A program made the translations under genes and the position numbers. From Thermococcus sp. 21S9 (lineage in GTDB: Archaea; Methanobacteriota_B; Thermococci; Thermococcales; Thermococcaceae): a stretch of 64,000 bases of DNA. Location: positions 1,302,001-1,366,000 of the forward strand of contig NZ_SNUS01000001.1 in the NCBI RefSeq assembly GCF_012027635.1, written 5' to 3'. Below the pieces are notes generated by a model, which was not told the origin of the DNA, searched no databases, and was given only the letters and a program-made list of their open reading frames with translations. Shown piece after piece: positions 5,905-62,318 of the stretch. Position 1 is the stretch's first letter; each line of letters opens with the position of its first letter.

Positions 5905-5951
5905 CACCAGAATTAATGAAACAAGGTTCACCTAAAAATCTGCCGGTTTGG

Positions 5952-5968
5952 AACAAAGAGTTGGTAAC
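5952..5968. promoter_or_regulatory. SurR-type binding site between NifX-like gene and ABC importer
   Basis: AAC at 5952-5954, five bases, then GTTGGTAAC at 5960-5968. Read on the minus strand this is GTTn3AACn5GTT, the extended SurR consensus known from Pyrococcus furiosus. It lies about 15 bp upstream of the importer's TATA (CCATTAAAAG, 5984-5993) and a similar distance upstream of an AT-rich minus-strand TATA (about 5932-5940) for the NifX-like gene. Confidence 0.65.
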
Positions 5969-5983
5969 ATCGATGCACCAAAA

Positions 5984-5993
5984 CCATTAAAAG
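5984..5993 (+). promoter_or_regulatory. TATA box of the iron-type ABC importer operon
   Basis: CCATTAAAAG with transcription start expected near 6015, just before the GGTGAT ribosome binding site of the binding-protein gene. The leader would be only about ten bases. Confidence 0.5.
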
Positions 5994-6024
5994 CGTGCTA
6001 CCTTTTTTGGAGTTGGTGATACAG

Positions 6025-7191
6025 ATGAAGAAGGCCCTCGCGCTCCTCGTAATCCTGCTGGTCGTTTCAATAGCGGGATGCATAGGAACGTCAACGTCGA
6101 GCTCAACCAAGCCAGCCAGTTCCTCTCCAGCGGTAACGAGCTCAACCACGAGCCCGGGCTACATCACCGTCACCGACACCCTCGGAAGAACCGTGAAGGT
6201 TCCGGCAAACGTTAGCAGGGTCGTGGCCGTCGGACCGGGAGCTTTGAGAATCCTCGTCTACCTCAACGCGACCGATAAGGTGGTTGGAATCGAGGAGTTC
6301 GAGAAGCGCTTCCCCTACGGGAGGCCATACATCCTGGCCCACCCTGAGCTTCTCAAACTGCCGGTCATCGGCCCCGGCGGTCCCGGAAAGCTTCCGGACA
6401 TGGAGGCCCTGATTAAGGTTCACCCGCAGGTAATTTTCATGGTCTTTGTTAGTAAGCAGACCGCCGATGAGGTTCAGCAGAAGACGGGAATCCCCGTCGT
6501 GGTTCTCAGCTACGGAACGCTGAAGAACTTCACAGACCCGGTCTTCTTCAAGTCGCTCCTCTTAGCTGGAAAAATCCTCGGAAAGGAGAAGAGGGCCGAG
6601 GAGGTCATAAAGTTCATCGAGGAACAGCAGAGCTACCTTGAGAACCTCACGAAGGGCCTGAAGAGCCCGAGGGTTTACGTCGGTGGCATAGGCTTCAAGG
6701 GCGCCCACGGGATAACGAGCACCTTCACCGACTACGCGCCCTTTACCGTTCTCCACCTCGACAACGTCGCCTCGAACCTGAGCAGTAAAAACGGCTGGGT
6801 GCAGGTGGACAAGGAGTTTCTGCTGAAGGAGAACCCGGACTACATCTTCATCGACGAGGGTGGCTTGAAGATAATCCTCGACGACTACAAGAGCAACCCC
6901 GACTTCTACAACTCGCTCAAGGCCGTCAAGGAGGGCCACGTTTACGGAGTCCTGCCCTACAACTTCTACAACACCAACATCGGAATTGCCATAGCTGACG
7001 CATACTACATCGGAAAGGTTATCTACCCGGAGCGCTTCAAGGGTATAGACCCCGTTGAGAAGGCCAACGAAATCTTCACCTTCCTCGTCGGAAAGCCGGT
7101 TTACGGCGAGCTCGCCAAGGAATTCGGCGGGTTTGGGAAGATAGACCTCGCCAGCGGAAACGTCACCTACGGCCTTCCAACGAACCCGTGA
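6025..7191 (+). CDS. ABC importer substrate-binding lipoprotein (iron/metallophore/cobalamin type)
   Basis: About 388 residues. A signal peptide (MKKALALLVILLVVSIAGC) ends in a lipobox with Cys at about residue 19, then a Ser/Thr/Pro-rich linker typical of archaeal surface proteins. The mature domain (about residues 48-370) is of the BtuF/FhuD type (periplasmic_binding_2), with VTDTLGRTVKVPANVSRVV at its start, the usual opening of iron-siderophore and cobalamin binding proteins. The ATG at 6025, not 5995, fits the signal peptide and the GGTGAT just upstream. It is followed without gap by the permease and ATPase genes. Substrate could be a metal chelate, heme or corrinoid; the sequence does not decide. 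Confidence 0.88.
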   Translation: MKKALALLVILLVVSIAGCIGTSTSSSTKPASSSPAVTSSTTSPGYITVTDTLGRTVKVPANVSRVVAVGPGALRILVYLNATDKVVGIEEFEKRFPYGRPYILAHPELLKLPVIGPGGPGKLPDMEALIKVHPQVIFMVFVSKQTADEVQQKTGIPVVVLSYGTLKNFTDPVFFKSLLLAGKILGKEKRAEEVIKFIEEQQSYLENLTKGLKSPRVYVGGIGFKGAHGITSTFTDYAPFTVLHLDNVASNLSSKNGWVQVDKEFLLKENPDYIFIDEGGLKIILDDYKSNPDFYNSLKAVKEGHVYGVLPYNFYNTNIGIAIADAYYIGKVIYPERFKGIDPVEKANEIFTFLVGKPVYGELAKEFGGFGKIDLASGNVTYGLPTNP

Positions 7192-8237
7192 TGCCTATGG
7201 TCATGGACTACAGGGCGTACCTGAGGCGAAAGTTCCTCATAGGCCTCGCCCTTTTCCTTTCCCTGTTAGCGGTCTCTCTGTTCTCCCTCTCGAGCGGACC
7301 CTACCACGTTCCGGTTAGGGAAGTCCTCGCGGTTCTCTTCGGCGGTGGGAGCAGGGACGACCGCCTCGTAATCCTCGGCATAAGGCTCCCGAGAATCGTC
7401 GCCGGAATCCTCGTCGGGGCCTCGATGGGCATCGCCGGCGCGGTTCTGCAGGGCTACCTGAGAAATCCCCTCGCCACACCGTTCACTATGGGGGTCTCGA
7501 ACGGGGCCATGTTCGGTGCTTCCCTCGCCATAATCCTCGGCGCGGGTTATTCCCTCAACTCGGGGCAGGTCTTCCTCAACAACCCCTACGCCGTCGTTCT
7601 CTTCGCGTTCCTCGGGGCGATAAGCGCTACCCTCGTCATTCTCGCCCTCGCGAGGCTCCGCGGTCTGAGTCCAGAGGCAATAGTTTTGGCCGGAGTTGCG
7701 ATGAGCTCCCTCTACGTTGCTCTAACTACCCTCGTCCAGTACTTCGCCAACGAGCTTCAGCTCTCGGCGATGGTCTACTGGAGCTTCGGAAACCTCGCGA
7801 GAGCAACGTGGCGGGAAAACGCCATAATGGCCGTCGCTTTCGCCTTTGTTTTCGCCTACTTCCTCGTCAAGCGGTGGGATTTGAACGCCTCAACCCTTGG
7901 AGACGAGATAGCCAAGAGCGTTGGGGTCAACATCGAGAGAGAAAGGCTAATCGGGACACTTCTCTCAGCCTTCATAACCTCCGTAACGGTGGCCTTCGTG
8001 GGGGTAATCGGCTTCATCGGACTCATAGCGCCCCACTCAATGCGTCTCATCGCCGGCGGTGATTACCGCTCGCTGATTCCCCTCTCGGCGTTAGCAGGAG
8101 CGCTACTCCTCGTCTCGGCCGACACAGTCGCGAGGCTAATCGTCTCGCCTATGAACCTTCCCGTCGGCGTCATAACATCGTTCCTCGGCGCGCCGACGTT
8201 CATATACCTCCTCGTGAAGATGGAGGGCCGGCGATGA
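7191..8237 (+). CDS. ABC importer permease, FecCD/BtuC type
   Basis: About 348 residues with nine to ten transmembrane helices. It has the FecCD signatures: RLPRIVAGILVGASMGIAGA near residue 60 and GFIGLIAPHSMRL near residue 270, the latter forming the coupling region with the ATPase. Two copies would form the importer channel with the ATPase that follows. The stop of the lipoprotein gene overlaps the first ATG (TGATG), and ATG codons at 7197 and 7203 are alternative starts. The 3' end overlaps the ATPase gene by four bases, indicating translational coupling. Confidence 0.88.
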   Translation: MPMVMDYRAYLRRKFLIGLALFLSLLAVSLFSLSSGPYHVPVREVLAVLFGGGSRDDRLVILGIRLPRIVAGILVGASMGIAGAVLQGYLRNPLATPFTMGVSNGAMFGASLAIILGAGYSLNSGQVFLNNPYAVVLFAFLGAISATLVILALARLRGLSPEAIVLAGVAMSSLYVALTTLVQYFANELQLSAMVYWSFGNLARATWRENAIMAVAFAFVFAYFLVKRWDLNASTLGDEIAKSVGVNIERERLIGTLLSAFITSVTVAFVGVIGFIGLIAPHSMRLIAGGDYRSLIPLSALAGALLLVSADTVARLIVSPMNLPVGVITSFLGAPTFIYLLVKMEGRR

Positions 8238-8974
8238 TTGAGGCGAAAGGCATAAGCTTCTCCTACGGCGAGCGGGAGGTCCTGAGGGGAATAAGCCTTG
8301 AAGTAAGTGAGGGTGAGTTCGTGGCAATCCTCGGGCCGAATGGGGCCGGAAAGAGCACTTTCCTCAGGTGTCTCGCCGGAATTCTGAAGTGTGGCGGTGT
8401 GTTCGTCAAGGGCAGGCCGATTAACGACTACTCCCCAAGGGAGCTCTCGAAGGTTCTCGCCTACGTCCCGCAGAGGGTCGAGCCGGGGTTTTTGACGGTC
8501 TTCGACACCGTTCTCCTCGGCAGGAGACCCTACATGGGGTTAACCCCTTCGGAGAGGGATTTGAAGGTCGTTGAAGATGCACTAAAGAGGCTCGGCATTG
8601 AGGAGTTGGCCCTCAAGAGGACGAACGAGATAAGCGGTGGGGAACTGCAGAAGGTCAGCATAGCGAGGGCTCTGGCTCAGGAACCGGAAATCCTGCTGAT
8701 GGACGAGCCGACCAACAACCTCGACCTCAAGAGCCAGCTTGAGGTGATGAGGCTCGCGAGGGAATTGGCGAGGGAGGGGAAGACCGTCATTACGGTCATG
8801 CACGACGTAAACCTTGCCCTGCGCTTTGCCAAGAGGTTCGTCTTCATGAAGGACGGGAGAAAAATAGCGGACGGTAACTTTGAAGTCCTGAGCGAGGAAC
8901 TCTTTGAGGAAGTCTACGGCGTTAAGGTGGAGATAGGGGAGGTAAGAGGGGTTCCGGTTGTGGTTCCCCTCTAA
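8234..8974 (+). CDS. ABC importer ATPase, FecE/BtuD type
   Basis: 246 residues. Walker A GPNGAGKST at about residues 35-43, Q-loop near VPQRVEP, signature ISGGELQKV, Walker B ILLMDEPTNNLDL, and a switch histidine in TVMHDVN. All motifs for ATP hydrolysis are intact. It would power the BtuC-type permease encoded just upstream, with which it overlaps (ATGA). The order binding protein-permease-ATPase is the standard one for iron/cobalamin uptake operons. The 3' end overlaps the convergent TPR gene by four bases. Confidence 0.9.
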   Translation: MIEAKGISFSYGEREVLRGISLEVSEGEFVAILGPNGAGKSTFLRCLAGILKCGGVFVKGRPINDYSPRELSKVLAYVPQRVEPGFLTVFDTVLLGRRPYMGLTPSERDLKVVEDALKRLGIEELALKRTNEISGGELQKVSIARALAQEPEILLMDEPTNNLDLKSQLEVMRLARELAREGKTVITVMHDVNLALRFAKRFVFMKDGRKIADGNFEVLSEELFEEVYGVKVEIGEVRGVPVVVPL

Positions 8975-25293: not shown

Positions 25294-25303
25294 GTTTAAC
25301 TTA

Positions 25304-26113
25304 TCACCTCTGGAGGAGGCCCCTTAGAATCTCCACAGCCTCCTCCACGCTCAGCGGGATTTCGTTGATACCGAGCTCGTGGAAGAGCCTCACTATCTCG
25401 GGCACATCGAGGTTCGCCCTCTCTATGAGTTCAGGCCTCGAAAACAGCTCCCTCGGCGTTCCCTCGAAGAGGATTTCTTTGTTCACCACGTAAACCCTGT
25501 CGGCGAGGCGAATCAGCCTCAGGTCATGGGTAACCACTACGACCGTCTTTCCTTCCCCCTTCCAGCTCCGAATCATGTCGAGCACGAAGTTCCTGTTCCT
25601 CAAGTCCAAATCCCTCGTCGGCTCGTCGAGGAGAAGAACTTCCGGCTCCATTGCCGTTACGCAGGCTATCGAGGCCTTTTTCTTCTCGCCACCGCTCAGG
25701 CTGTACGGGTGTCTATCGGCCAGCTTCTCGATGCCGAGTCTTCTGAGTTCTTCTCTGGCCCTCTCAAGGCCCCTCTCTTTACTCCACAGGTGAACGGGTC
25801 CAAAAGCTACATCTTCCAGAACCGTCGCGCTGAAGAGCATAACATCTGGATTCTGGAACAGGAAGCCGACCTTCCGCCGAAACTCCCCGTCCGTCATCGT
25901 GTCCTCCGTTATCGGCTTTCCCTCGAACAGTATCTCGCCCTCCGTTGGCATGACCAGCGCGTCCATCAGCTTGAGCAGTGTGGTCTTTCCGGCGCCGTTC
26001 GGCCCGACTATGGCCAGGGTTTCTCCCCTCTCAACATCCATGTTTATTCCCCTGAGCGCCCACTCCCCGGTTGGATATCTGTAGGAAACGTTTCTGAGCT
26101 CGTAAACCTTCAT
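25304..26113 (-). CDS. cbiO: ECF transporter ATPase, Ni/Co type (CbiO/NikO)
   Basis: 269 residues. Walker A GPNGAGKTT at about residues 37-45, signature YSLSGGEKKKAS, Walker B VLLLDEPTRDLDL and switch His in TVVVVTHDLRL are all present. It is the last gene of an operon cbiM-PDGLE-cbiQ-cbiO that forms a complete energy-coupling-factor importer for nickel or cobalt. It overlaps the cbiQ gene by four bases in the coding direction. The C-terminal 50 residues extend beyond the core ATPase, as usual for CbiO. Confidence 0.9.
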   Translation of the reverse strand: MKVYELRNVSYRYPTGEWALRGINMDVERGETLAIVGPNGAGKTTLLKLMDALVMPTEGEILFEGKPITEDTMTDGEFRRKVGFLFQNPDVMLFSATVLEDVAFGPVHLWSKERGLERAREELRRLGIEKLADRHPYSLSGGEKKKASIACVTAMEPEVLLLDEPTRDLDLRNRNFVLDMIRSWKGEGKTVVVVTHDLRLIRLADRVYVVNKEILFEGTPRELFSRPELIERANLDVPEIVRLFHELGINEIPLSVEEAVEILRGLLQR

Positions 26114-26922
26114 AGCAATCCCCTCGTGAAGGCAAACGTTAGTACGACGAGGAGAACGGTGAAGGCCGAGAACGCGTAGTCGACCTTTCCAGCCTTGAAC
26201 TCCCTCAGCGGTTCGATTTCGTTGGCGTAGCTCCTGGAGAGCATGGCGTAGTAGAGGTCCTCGCCGAGGGCGTTGGCCTTTATGAAGGTCGCCCCGATGT
26301 GCTTTCCGGCCTCTTTCCAGCTCTCGACCATGCCGAGTTCTCCAGCTAACCTCGCCCTCCTCGCGTGCATCGCGTCAAGCAGGAGCTTGGCGAGGAGGAA
26401 TATGTAGCGGTAGGTTAAGGTCATTATGGTTATCACCATTCCGGGAACCCTGAAGAACGCGAGGGCCGAGACGATGTCGTTCCACCTGCTCGTCATCGTG
26501 AAGAGTATCGCGTATGAAACCGCAGTCGCGACGCGGAGCGTAAAGAGAACCGCCCAGCGGATTCCCTCCCTGCTCGCGGTGAGACCGAACAGATGAAAAA
26601 CCGGCTCGCCCGGAATCATGAATATCGAAGGGAGGGCTATAACCCCCGTGAAAATCGGAATGAAGACCCAGACCCTCTTCGTGAACTCGACTACCGGCAG
26701 TCTGGAGAGAACCGCGAGGACGAGTGCAAGGAAGTAGAAAGCTAAAATCACATCAATCCGTCCGAGGGAAACCACCGTCGCGACTATCGCAACGAGCGAG
26801 AACACCTTAACCCTTGGGTCGATTCTCTGAAGCAGGCCGTCCATTCTCGCGTACCTCTCTGAGAAGACGGCGTTGGTCGTGAACTCGAGGACTTCCCTGG
26901 CGGTCTCTTCGAGGAACCCCAT
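26110..26922 (-). CDS. cbiQ: ECF transporter transmembrane component (CbiQ/NikQ)
   Basis: About 270 residues with five to six transmembrane helices. The conserved cytoplasmic coupling segment MHARRARLAGEL followed by SRSYANEIEPL carries the two Ala-Arg-x signatures that contact the ATPase in ECF T-components. The start ATG at 26922 is preferred over 26934 by comparison with family N termini. It is located 21 bp after the PDGLE gene. It transmits ATP hydrolysis to the CbiM substrate-capturing subunit. Confidence 0.87.
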   Translation of the reverse strand: MGFLEETAREVLEFTTNAVFSERYARMDGLLQRIDPRVKVFSLVAIVATVVSLGRIDVILAFYFLALVLAVLSRLPVVEFTKRVWVFIPIFTGVIALPSIFMIPGEPVFHLFGLTASREGIRWAVLFTLRVATAVSYAILFTMTSRWNDIVSALAFFRVPGMVITIMTLTYRYIFLLAKLLLDAMHARRARLAGELGMVESWKEAGKHIGATFIKANALGEDLYYAMLSRSYANEIEPLREFKAGKVDYAFSAFTVLLVVLTFAFTRGLL

Positions 26923-26943
26923 TCTCACCACCAAAAAATAAAT

Positions 26944-27279
26944 TCAGGAGGAGGCGCCCTTGCCGACCACGAACTTGACGAGGGCGTAGTAGAGGGCAAC
27001 GACGAGTGCCGTTCCAACTATCGCGGAGATTATGTAGCCTATCGAGGCGTGGAGCTTGTCCTCCCAGCCTGGGATGTTGTAGTCGGGCAAAATCGCGTGG
27101 TTCCAGGCGTCCGCGAGCTTCTCCATGCCGGGCAACTTGTGGCCGACCATGTGCTCCACAGTCTGGACGTCCCACTCGCCCCAGGCATCGTCGTAGTTCC
27201 ACACGAGCAGTATTCCAATCGGGGAGAGGATTATCATGACGCCGACTATTGCGAGGAGGGTCTTGGTTACCTTGTCCAT
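26944..27279 (-). CDS. PDGLE/CbiN-like small membrane subunit of Ni/Co transporter
   Basis: 111 residues with two helices (residues 8-28 and 83-104) around a short outside loop. In Ni/Co ECF systems, a two-helix CbiN or PDGLE-domain protein (NikN/NikL) is required with CbiM for metal uptake. The loop ends in PGWEDKLHASIGYI, which resembles the PDGLE region. The position between cbiM and cbiQ fits. The metal (Ni or Co) is not decided by this protein. Confidence 0.7.
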   Translation of the reverse strand: MDKVTKTLLAIVGVMIILSPIGILLVWNYDDAWGEWDVQTVEHMVGHKLPGMEKLADAWNHAILPDYNIPGWEDKLHASIGYIISAIVGTALVVALYYALVKFVVGKGASS

Positions 27280-27283
27280 TCAA

Positions 27284-27943
27284 TCACCCCCTTGCAAGGG
27301 TCCTCATCTCGAAGAGGTCGGGCCTGCTCTTTCTGACGTACCACACGACTGCCGCGGTGACGACCGCCGCGGCGGGGCCTGCTGTGACGAGGTGCGCTAT
27401 CGCCATCGCCGGAACGGAGACGCTGAGGGGGTAGGGGCAGTAACCGGGCTGAATGTAGGGCTGTATTCCGAGTTCGATGCCCGCCATTATCGCCGCTGCA
27501 ACGAGTCCAACGTAGGCGCCGATTCCAGCTGAGATGACCTCGTTGAGCTTGAACTTCTCTGTGAGGAACTTGTAGGTGTAGTAGCCGACGAAGGGGAGGA
27601 CGACGCCCATGTTGAAGACGTTGGCGGCGTAGGTCGTTATTCCGCCGTCACCGAAGAACAGGGCCTGAATGAGCAGAACTATTGTCAGCGACACCGTTGC
27701 GGCCCAGGGGCTTATGAGTATCGCTATTATCGTTCCGCCGACGATGTGCGCCGTCGTTCCTCCGGGAACCGGCATGTTGTACATCATCACGAGGAACGAA
27801 AAGGCCGTGAGCACTCCCAGCAGGGGCACCTGGCTTGGCTTGAGGTTCTTGAGCCACTTGAAGGCCCTGTACCAAATAGGTATCATAATCAAATAGAAAA
27901 ACGCGCAGGTGTACGGCCCAAGGTATCCATCCGGTATGTGCAA
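27284..27943 (-). CDS. cbiM: Ni/Co ECF transporter substrate-specific subunit (CbiM/NikM)
   Basis: About 219 residues. It begins with HIPDGYLGP; the N-terminal amine and His2 of the MHIPDG sequence bind the metal in CbiM/NikM, so the start should be right before that His. I therefore choose the TTG at 27943, with GGTGGTG six bases upstream, instead of the GTG codons at 27949/27952 that would add residues before it. Seven hydrophobic helices follow, with conserved VPGGTTAHIVGG. First gene of the operon, with SurR-like and direct-repeat sites upstream. Confidence 0.87.
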   Translation of the reverse strand: MHIPDGYLGPYTCAFFYLIMIPIWYRAFKWLKNLKPSQVPLLGVLTAFSFLVMMYNMPVPGGTTAHIVGGTIIAILISPWAATVSLTIVLLIQALFFGDGGITTYAANVFNMGVVLPFVGYYTYKFLTEKFKLNEVISAGIGAYVGLVAAAIMAGIELGIQPYIQPGYCPYPLSVSVPAMAIAHLVTAGPAAAVVTAAVVWYVRKSRPDLFEMRTLARG

Positions 27944-27966
27944 TTTCACCACCCCTCATTCCTGAT

Positions 27967-27997
27967 TGGTGTTATCAGGACCTAAGATGGTGTTATC
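27967..27997 (-). promoter_or_regulatory. Pair of direct repeats over the cbiM transcription start
   Basis: TGGTGTTATC occurs at 27967-27976 and again at 27988-27997, 21 bp apart (two helical turns). The predicted minus-strand start of transcription (about 27975-27980) lies among them. GTGTTA(T/C) resembles half-sites described for NikR in other prokaryotes, so a nickel-responsive repressor is likely (inference); NikR sites are usually inverted rather than direct. Confidence 0.5.
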
Positions 27998-27999
27998 CT

Positions 28000-28008
28000 A
28001 TAAAAAAC
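28000..28008 (-). promoter_or_regulatory. TATA box of the Ni/Co transporter operon
   Basis: Minus strand TTTTTTATA, preceded by a purine-rich BRE-like CAAAAAG. It is sandwiched between the SurR-like site upstream and the direct repeats downstream. Confidence 0.55.
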
Positions 28009-28022
28009 TTTTTGAAAAGAGT

Positions 28023-28045
28023 GTTACTAACCTCAGGTTCACAAC
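28023..28045. promoter_or_regulatory. Double SurR-type site upstream of cbiM
   Basis: GTTACTAAC (28023-28031) and GTTCACAAC (28037-28045) are exactly five bases apart, so the extended SurR consensus GTTn3AACn5GTT is matched and continued into a second full GTTn3AAC. It lies just upstream of the minus-strand BRE/TATA, the position from which SurR activates hydrogenase operons in P. furiosus. Confidence 0.7.
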
Positions 28046-28113
28046 GGGAAGGGGTAGACTGGGCCTTCAAAATATGAACGGGGAAGTTAAGGAGAATAAA
28101 AGGTATCAAGGTA

Positions 28114-38825: not shown

Positions 38826-39025
38826 TTGCTCACCTCCAGGGGCTCGGCGCTCAGCGCTCCGACTGGACAGGCGTTGACGCATATCTTACAGCTTATGCAC
38901 TTCTCTTGAATAAACTCCCAGCCACTCGAGTGCACCTCTATCGCCAGAGTCGGGCAGACTCCAGCACAGCCACCGCAGAGGTAACAGCGGTCTTCGTTAA
39001 CGAGGATTTTAATCTTCTCCGGCAT
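38822..39025 (-). CDS. Ferredoxin, 2[4Fe-4S] type
   Basis: About 67 residues. Two cluster motifs: [12 protein letters not shown] and [12 protein letters not shown], each CxxCxxCxxxCP, for two [4Fe-4S] clusters. No extra domain. Its ATG at 39025 lies within the last codons of surR (17-bp overlap) and its stop overlaps the geranylgeranyl reductase start, so the three are one operon. It likely carries low-potential electrons to that reductase (inference from position and family knowledge). Confidence 0.9.
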
Positions 39026-39704
39026 CGCCTTCACCGCCGAGCTTTGCCTTCAACCTTTCGTCATCTATCGTTATGACCCTGTCTTTTATTCTTAACGGAA
39101 CGAACCTGTCCAGCTCGCTCGCCTTCTGGAGCACCTCTCTCTCCTTGAGGTTGAGCCTGTCGCTGAGTTCGTCAACCGTGGCCGAGCCGTTGAGGAGGAC
39201 GTAGTGGAGGATTGCCAGCTGGGTCATGTCGCCGATTTCCTTGAGGTAGGTCTCCTTAATCATCGCCATGAGCCTGTCTCTCCGGCCCTCTATCGCCTGG
39301 AGCTCCTTGAGGATTTCTTCGAGCTTTTTGCTTAGGTTTCTAAAGGTTAGAATCATCTCGTCGAGGTTTTTGGGCTCCTCGGGGAGCTCTATCGAGACCT
39401 TCGGCTCCTCGCTCAGGTCAAGACCGCGGTACCAGAAGATGTTGGGGGTTATCGTGACGACGTAGGTTTTGGCGATGTTTATGTCGTAGTACTTCCTCGC
39501 GGGGCCGATGAAGGGGCCCTCACGCTCGTAGGATTTGAGTATCCCCTCGCGCTCCATTATTTTAAGGTGCTTCGCTACGGCCGTTGAGGAGACGCTAACC
39601 TTACTGCTCAGAAAACTGAAGTAGCACTCGGTGCAGGTGAGGTGGCTGAGCAAATCGCGCCTCACCTTGTTCCCGAGGATGTAGAAAATGTCGGGTTCAT
39701 TCAT
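39009..39704 (-). CDS. surR: SurR, sulfur-response transcriptional regulator
   Basis: About 231 residues. An N-terminal ArsR-type winged helix (residues 1-75) has the redox CxxC switch in LTCTECYF at about residues 23-26, followed by VSVSSTAVAKHLKIMEREG, the recognition region. A central coiled segment and a second winged-helix-like C-terminal part (LKEIGDMTQLAILHYVLLNG) match P. furiosus SurR closely. In P. furiosus reduced SurR binds GTTn3AAC and activates hydrogenase genes while repressing sulfur-reduction genes; oxidation of the CxxC by sulfur releases it. It is divergent from pdo, as in Pyrococcus, with a motif match between. ATG 39704 chosen over 39713. Confidence 0.93.
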   Translation of the reverse strand: MNEPDIFYILGNKVRRDLLSHLTCTECYFSFLSSKVSVSSTAVAKHLKIMEREGILKSYEREGPFIGPARKYYDINIAKTYVVTITPNIFWYRGLDLSEEPKVSIELPEEPKNLDEMILTFRNLSKKLEEILKELQAIEGRRDRLMAMIKETYLKEIGDMTQLAILHYVLLNGSATVDELSDRLNLKEREVLQKASELDRFVPLRIKDRVITIDDERLKAKLGGEGDAGED

Positions 39705-39754: not shown

Positions 39755-39771
39755 AACTTAAGGTTGCAAAC
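39755..39771. promoter_or_regulatory. SurR binding site between surR and pdo
   Basis: AAC at 39755-39757, five bases, then GTTGCAAAC at 39763-39771. On the minus strand this is GTTn3AACn5GTT, a full extended SurR motif. It is nine bases upstream of the surR TATA and about 37 bases upstream of the pdo TATA (ATTATAAAC, about 39809-39817). Confidence 0.8.
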
Positions 39772-60969: not shown

Positions 60970-61280
60970 CGGACCACCATTGGAGTTTGAAGTCGAGGAA
61001 TTTTAACTTTTCCGATACATCACGCTCAGAACGCTCTGATTTGAGATAAAGACCATCATAATGGAGAAAACGCAAAAACTTCCTTAGATAATCACCAGGA
61101 AATCGATTTCCATGCGCCAAAAACTGGAACGTCTTGTTACCTCTTTACGACAAAATGTTTCGAATTTCCTTCGAGGTTGCGAACGTAAGGTTCGTATAGC
61201 CCGAATTTCCGCAAGCCCTGCTTAAACCCGGCCATTTTTCGTGGTAAGTGATTTCACCCAGCCTTTCAGGGAATCGCGTA

Positions 61281-61310: not shown

Positions 61311-61422
61311 TTTGGGGTTACTGCATACGGGCGAGACACCGCTTTACCATATTTTTAGAGCTTTTTGTCGACCCGTTTCTGCCAACAAGTTTTCCCCATA
61401 TTAGCATTAATCTCCAGAAAGG

Positions 61423-61430
61423 CTTAAATA
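61423..61430 (+). promoter_or_regulatory. TATA box of the precursor-crRNA transcript
   Basis: CTTAAATA preceded by the purine-rich AGAAAG (BRE). It lies 51-58 bases upstream of the first repeat. Confidence 0.55.
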
Positions 61431-61480
61431 TTGGGGGCCATTCTTCCTTTGTTGGGCGAAAAGAATGAATTTCGCGCCCT

Positions 61481-62318
61481 GTTGCAATAAGACTCGAGGA
61501 GAATTGAAAGCCGGGGAAGGGAAAGACGACCCTCCTACTGAACCTAAGTTGCAATAAGACTCGAGGAGAATTGAAAGCGTATTTCTTGCGGAGCTCAAGC
61601 AGAGCCTTTAACTGTTGCAATAAGACTCGAGGAGAATTGAAAGTCAATGCTGACCGGGCCCTGTCCGCTCGGAAGGGTAAGTTGCAATAAGACTCGAGGA
61701 GAATTGAAAGCAGGGAATACATTGAAGCGTGGGGGCTGAAGCCGACAGAGTTGCAATAAGACTCGAGGAGAATTGAAAGGCGTTCAGTTTCAACTCTGAC
61801 GCTTCTAATTCTCCCCGTTGCAATAAGACTCGAGGAGAATTGAAAGGCTCTTTAGCCGGAATGAAGACTTTACGGCCCAGTTGTTGCAATAAGACTCGAG
61901 GAGAATTGAAAGTTCCGCTCTGGTCCGTTACTCTCACCGTATTAACGCCGGTTGCAATAAGACTCGAGGAGAATTGAAAGTTTAGGCAGTTCAACTATGG
62001 AATGGCTTATACGTGGTGTTGCAATAAGACTCGAGGAGAATTGAAAGTCGCTCGGATACTATGAGTTTTTCGGGGCGTTTTTCGTGTTGCAATAAGACTC
62101 GAGGAGAATTGAAAGCAGCAGAAATGGGATGGTCCGGGTCGGGAATCAGAACGTTGCAATAAGACTCGAGGAGAATTGAAAGTCCGTATAAATAGCACGG
62201 GGCATTATGCGTGCAATAAAGTTGCAATAAGACTCGAGGAGAATTGAAAGCCTTTATCACCGACTCGACGTACCTCATGCTCTCACCAGTTGCAATAAGA
62301 CTCAAAGAAAATCAAAAG
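61481..62318 (+). CRISPR. CRISPR array, 13 repeats of 30 nt and 12 spacers
   Basis: Repeat 1 is at 61481-61510; it begins GTTGCAATAAGACTCGAGGA and ends GAATTGAAAG. Repeats start at 61481, 61548, 61614, 61681, 61750, 61817, 61883, 61951, 62018, 62086, 62153, 62221 and 62289. The first 12 are identical as read. The last (62289-62318) keeps GTTGCAATAAGACT but is degenerate after that, marking the leader-distal end. Spacers are 36-39 nt. The repeat resembles the P. furiosus 30-nt type, including the GAATTGAAAG end that supplies the 8-nt crRNA tag (ATTGAAAG). No spacer target could be identified by eye. Confidence 0.97.

Follow-up and report, generated by a model that had tools for sequence, protein, structure and literature searches.

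What controls the cbiM operon of Thermococcus sp. 21S9, and which metal does its transporter carry? A sequence-only reading of the window (the whole 64,000-nucleotide stretch of DNA analysed here, from genome G000) had proposed that the promoter at 27967–28045 combines a double SurR motif with a direct-repeat operator, such that SurR switches on nickel import together with the hydrogenases and a NikR-type sensor shuts it off. Re-reading the promoter confirmed every letter and coordinate of these motifs: the + strand at 28023–28045 is GTTACTAACCTCAGGTTCACAAC, which reads on the gene strand as GTTGTGAACCTGAGGTTAGTAAC, that is, GTTn3AACn5GTTn3AAC, and TGGTGTTATC is present twice, at 27967–27976 and 27988–27997, 21 bp apart from start to start. 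The gene-strand order is GTTGTGAACCTGAGGTTAGTAAC, ACTCTTT, TCAAAAAGTTTTTTATA (BRE/TATA), GG, ATAACAC, 14 bp, ATAACAC, with the SurR motif just upstream of the BRE/TATA. The promoter elements and the operon they precede are:

28023–28045, minus strand: double SurR motif GTTGTGAACCTGAGGTTAGTAAC (predicted site), with spacing constant in relatives
~27999–28015, minus strand: BRE/TATA-like element, TCAAAAAGTTTTTTATA on the gene strand, among the most conserved columns of 58 aligned promoters
27990–27996, minus strand: predicted TATA-adjoining NikR half-site, ATAACAC on the gene strand, flipped relative to most relatives
27969–27975, minus strand: predicted TATA-distal NikR half-site, ATAACAC on the gene strand, 14 bp from the other half
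27284–27943, minus strand: nikM/cbiM, TTG start, 219 aa, beginning MHIPDGYLGP (CbiM/NikM family match)
26944–27279, minus strand: NikN-like subunit with a PDGLE domain, 111 aa (domain match)
26110–26934, minus strand: cbiQ/nikQ (TIGR02454)
25304–26113, minus strand: cbiO/nikO ATPase (annotation)

The long SurR motif, GTTn3AACn5GTT, is perfect in this promoter in both directions. Its full double form is found four times in the 1.92-Mb genome as compared to none for the reversed control pattern, and in 0 of 11,600 shuffled promoters of the same composition; the long motif itself is found 45 times as compared to 4 for its reversed control (11-fold). The direct-repeat pair of TGGTGTTATC is a single occurrence genome-wide, even when three mismatches are allowed. 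For cbiM, a GTG start at 27952 was rejected: TTG at 27943 gives the metal-binding N-terminus M-H-I-P-D-G, is preceded by GGTGGTGA, and is almost certainly the start codon, which would place the NikR half-sites ~25–55 bp upstream of it.

Both proposed regulators are encoded in this genome. The surR gene is itself part of the window, 11 kb from the cbiM promoter, and adjoins pdo:

39009–39704, minus strand: surR, with a CTEC redox motif (NF047699, 396 bits, cut-off 250; PDB 2qlz)
39755–39771, minus strand: long SurR motif between surR and pdo (motif scan)

Its product is a clear relative of P. furiosus PF0095 (2qlz; E 2e-89), and SurR family members score above the cut-off in 91 of 94 Thermococcaceae genomes. 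NikR (PF08753) is likewise found in 91 of the 94; that of the window genome aligns over its full length with P. horikoshii NikR (2bj1; E 1e-70) and has a ribbon-helix-helix domain and a His/His/His/Cys nickel site, its LQHEY, HVH and NC residues aligned to those of 2bj1. Elsewhere in this genome SurR motifs stand before the mbh, sulfhydrogenase, NSR-like and Nfn-like genes, and further ones are near hypC/hypD, the latter a matter of proximity only. With SurR sites before hydrogenase genes, the proposed switch would raise the hydrogenases and their metal together. The cbiM site thus shares its motif with the SurR regulon of Thermococcales (GTTn3AACn5GTT; mbh, sh, nsr, pdo, nfn), has the regulator gene in the same window and, like the sites of SurR-activated promoters, is placed upstream of the BRE/TATA; it differs in its target, predicted nickel import, and in the fixed 43–44 bp that separate it from a putative metal-sensor operator. 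A further full double SurR site (L001, G000:C1:930483) precedes a gene resembling sodium:solute symporters, which has a small membrane protein upstream of it. A SurR-like motif at 61176–61192 was set aside, being near a CRISPR-like array and without an obvious gene; the array (window ~61318–62305) holds a repeated peptide-encoding unit in spurious ORFs.

By protein search, 62 of the 94 Thermococcaceae genomes have cbiM, in two types that never co-occur: type A, 80–97% identical to the window cbiM, and type B, 34–41% identical. We extracted 59 cbiM promoters (19 type A and 40 type B) and found the motifs before almost all orthologs with rigid spacing, including those of the second, divergent type, in line with what the sequence-only reading had led one to expect. 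The two NikR half-sites are exactly 14 bp apart in 58 of the 59 promoters, and in 54 of these 58 the start of AACn5GTT is 43–44 bp before the left NikR half-site. The NikR element scores 12–14 of a possible 14 in the 58 promoters, a score of at least 12 being reached in 32 of 1180 shuffles; the shuffled controls contain AACn5GTT at a rate of 1.3% (45-bp stretches) and the long form at a rate of 0.05%. The strict long SurR motif, in either direction, is present in 17/19 type A and 15/40 type B promoters, the last AAC being replaced by AAT in many type B sites, and in genera g4 and g5 and a presumed Palaeococcus genome (G002) the cbiM promoter retains AACn5GTT without the GTTn3AAC part. The composite layout is missing from all 52 cbiM promoters examined from outside Thermococcales, several of which have NikR-like sites.

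The sequence-only reading had ascribed the direct repeats to a NikR-type sensor, and their half-site indeed fits the published predicted consensus GTGTTAC-N13/14-GTAACAC (PMC545781). On comparison with relatives the TGGTGTTATC pair is a predicted NikR operator; an operator of some unknown regulator was rejected because relatives carry the same element as a NikR palindrome. Half-site and spacing are the same as in the NikR operators of delta-proteobacteria (GTGTTAC-N13/14-GTAACAC) and of E. coli (GTATGA-N16-TCATAC), taking the form GTGYTA-N16-TARCAC in most relatives. Strict matches to this palindrome were found in 18 of the 94 genomes, at the cbiM promoter in 15; the other three (G019, G062 and G008) are inside coding sequence and were taken as chance. 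By contrast, the half-sites of the window share one orientation (ATAACAC-N14-ATAACAC, direct rather than inverted), and relatives show all four combinations: 41 of the 58 promoters are inverted, 9 are gene-strand tandem (the window included), 6 are opposite tandem and 2 are everted, with the direct-repeat form found in several lineages. Given that the inverted form predominates, the direct repeat of the window reads as a variant with its TATA-proximal half-site flipped; the repeat is present as first claimed, but in a derived form, the operator being an inverted repeat in most cases.

Inverted orientation is not strictly defining for NikR, because flipped half-sites have already been reported: a reversed arrangement was predicted in Desulfotalea and Desulfovibrio, and both inverted and everted forms have been described (PMC545781). 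The literature searched contained no tandem form. Protein alignment revealed identical NikR DNA-binding domains in the window genome, with its tandem operator, and in genome G025, whose operator is inverted. The half-site frame, GTnnnAC, is pseudo-symmetric, and two-fold symmetry is also a property of each ribbon-helix-helix dimer; from these observations together we infer that NikR tolerates half-sites in either polarity, which is a prediction and not a result. The two genomes, closely related and sharing one NikR DNA-binding domain, differ in half-site orientation and provide a natural experiment on operator symmetry.

The switch claimed for cbiM is found there but is not confined to it, since other operons share the layout. 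A composite pattern, AACn5GTT-N33-GTGYTAC, has 60 matches in the 94 genomes as compared to 3 for the reversed control pattern. Placed against gene coordinates, 28 of these matches can be assigned to cbiM, 9 to cooC-like genes and 20 to operons that encode an FmdE-like protein, a periplasmic-binding-protein ABC transporter or both; the 3 left (G014:1428749, G078:416413 and G082:8117) were taken as chance, their number equalling the control count. The window contains one such promoter in addition to that of cbiM, before an ABC importer:

5946–5968, plus strand: second double SurR motif GTTTGGAACAAAGAGTTGGTAAC (predicted site)
5995–6001, plus strand: predicted NikR half-site GTGCTAC, 43 bp downstream of the SurR core's first AAC
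6016–6022, plus strand: predicted second NikR half-site GTGATAC, 14 bp further, overlapping the GGTGAT ribosome-binding stretch
6025–7191, plus strand: substrate-binding lipoprotein of a FecCD-type ABC transporter (PF01497; closest structure 2etv)
7206–8237, plus strand: FecCD permease of the same transporter (PF01032)
8234–8974, plus strand: ATPase of the same transporter (PF00005)

From its promoter, this FecCD-type transporter (5946–8974) is predicted to be a nickel importer. There is precedent for such a role in NiuBDE of Helicobacter pylori, an ABC transporter for nickel that works with a periplasmic binding protein and is under nickel repression (PMC7840056); for the window transporter, nickel is predicted from the promoter only. 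Five genomes without cbiM in our search (G011, G032, G035, G061 and G069) have the ABC composite promoter. Operons of an FmdE-like gene and an ABC transporter under composite promoters were seen at L325, L327–L329, L332, L334, L337, L341–L344 and L354–L362, and several FmdE-like/ABC operons are directly downstream of nikR. Our literature search found no earlier work on an FmdE nickel transporter or a TM0189 nickel transporter. The third target is a gene for a CooC-like ATPase (L173/L295; G000:C1:1276754–1277553), whose closest full-length structure is CooC (3kje). In 25 genomes of the same genus the cooC-like promoters carry GTGYTAC-N14-GTGATAC after the TATA, with the left half flipped in G020, and 13 of the 25 have a SurR element, at 44–45 bp. 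In both the ABC and the cooC-like promoters the second half-site overlaps a Shine-Dalgarno stretch, GGTGAT, a confounding factor that leaves its conservation at these promoters with little weight.

These observations suggest how the promoter might work. Without elemental sulfur, reduced SurR would bind AACn5GTT or GTTn3AACn5GTT directly upstream of the BRE/TATA and raise nikMNQO transcription along with that of the hydrogenases. When nickel is sufficient, a Ni-bound NikR tetramer would occupy both half-sites, which are separated by 14 bp and of which the first adjoins the TATA and the second is close to the predicted start site, and would block the basal machinery. High output would require both an active SurR and a shortage of nickel. 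The FecCD-type ABC importer and the CooC-like ATPase would be driven by the same layout, forming a small nickel regulon. We assign a probability of roughly 0.78 to this AND-NOT gate, in which SurR would activate and Ni-NikR would repress the nickel regulon, with occupancy, signs of effect and nickel as substrate all predicted from sequence. The SurR-on, NikR-off arrangement first proposed is thus supported by sequence and comparison, including bona fide SurR and NikR genes and a SurR site upstream of the TATA. We hold with less assurance, as somewhat better than an even bet, that across Thermococcales a fixed-geometry SurR–NikR AND-NOT promoter defines a nickel regulon (NikMNQO, a FecCD-type ABC transporter with an FmdE-like partner, and a CooC-like nickel ATPase) in which NikR reads either polarity and operators flip from inverted to tandem while the regulator is unchanged; as part of this same joint reading, and at the same level of assurance, the FecCD-type transporter with its FmdE-like partner would be an unrecognised nickel importer.

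Within the literature searched, a composite promoter of the known regulators SurR and NikR is previously unreported: no SurR motif joined to a metal-sensor operator was found there, and an earlier listing of cbiM as a gene under SurR control is possible. Such a promoter would tie the supply of the hydrogenase metal to the switch between H2 making and sulfur reduction, with built-in protection against nickel excess, and would be a clear example of a two-input archaeal promoter. It also suggests a probable substrate for two window transporters annotated 'cobalt' and 'iron/B12'.

The direction of the SurR effect and the identity of the factor both invite other explanations. According to published work, SurR binding upstream of the TATA gives activation and binding downstream gives repression (PMC12162507; similar PMC10025317), and the upstream position of the cbiM site predicts activation without sulfur, overridden by nickel. 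RNA-seq of Palaeococcus pacificus is opposite to the predicted sign, elemental sulfur raising Ni/Co transport and HypF (PMC6981617), a rise that sulfide-driven nickel scarcity acting via NikR could explain. It would also suit a promoter in which NikR regulation is real and SurR is not dominant, where sulfide derived from sulfur precipitates nickel, NikR releases and import rises, the SurR site merely tuning basal activity or repressing; loss of the long SurR motif from the cbiM promoter of the presumed Palaeococcus genome points the same way. We nevertheless consider a subordinate SurR improbable, given a core that keeps a constant distance in 54 of 58 promoters and stands, upstream of the TATA, in the reported activating position (PMC12162507). 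That the AACCn3GGTT element should belong to a transcription factor other than SurR is very unlikely: the strict long motif is imperfect in most type B promoters (AAT for AAC; perfect in 15/40), but the window element has the same sequence and n5/n3 spacing as the motifs that this genome carries ahead of mbh and of NSR-like genes, and the motif is in marked excess over its reversed control genome-wide.

The metal raises a separate alternative, in which cobalt is the imported metal and the direct-repeat element serves a cobalt sensor or another metal sensor. Automatic annotation names say cobalt, and CbiM and NikM have their metal-binding residues in common. The M subunit of the window, which begins M-H-I-P and retains the conserved second metal-site His, nevertheless scores 206 bits to PDB 4m58 (a NikM-like chain) as compared to 50 bits to the cobalt transporter 5x3x, and its closest solved structures are the NikM-like set 4m58/4m5b, of which 4m58 bears the name TtNikM2. 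The N subunit is of the PDGLE type, not CbiN, in both type A and type B transporters, and CbiC, an enzyme of corrin-ring synthesis, is absent in 94/94 genomes, in agreement with a published table in which Thermococcales are without B12 synthesis (PMC2667541). The NikM-like M subunit, the PDGLE-type N subunit and the absence of CbiC together point to nickel rather than cobalt as much the likelier substrate, the metal that the sequence-only reading had favoured. Cobalt import under another sensor is further opposed by a half-site and spacing equal to the published NikR signal (PMC545781) and by the presence of NikR in nearly all the genomes, and we regard it as having very little chance of being correct.

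The operon resembles NikMNQO ECF transporters of the 4m58 type in its MHIPDG N-terminus, the second His of its metal site and its M-N-Q-O gene order with a PDGLE-type N. It differs in that two divergent types (about 34–41% identity) alternate at a single locus, both behind this kind of promoter. At this locus the whole nikMNQO operon is exchanged between the window genome (type A, window 25300–28113) and G025 (type B, L209): the PAC2 proteins encoded upstream are identical and DNA identity is 92.7% as far as the PAC2 stop, the ~2.8 kb transporter operon is unrelated except for 34 bp, and identity returns to ~90% after it. In the two promoters the flanking letters differ and the elements are the same, which argues that the elements, not their sequence context, are under selection.

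Three further loci were noted. In G054 (L103/L194) the promoter is intact and cbiM is broken by one in-frame TAG. In G058 (L248), after the PAC2 gene, a type B cbiM remnant is accompanied by decayed SurR and NikR elements, and from these traces the operon and its predicted switch appear to have been lost together. A Methanothermococcus MAG (L014, NZ_WAKW01000048.1) encodes a cbiM 71% identical to the type A gene of the window behind a promoter without a SurR element, consistent with a possible transfer between vent archaea.
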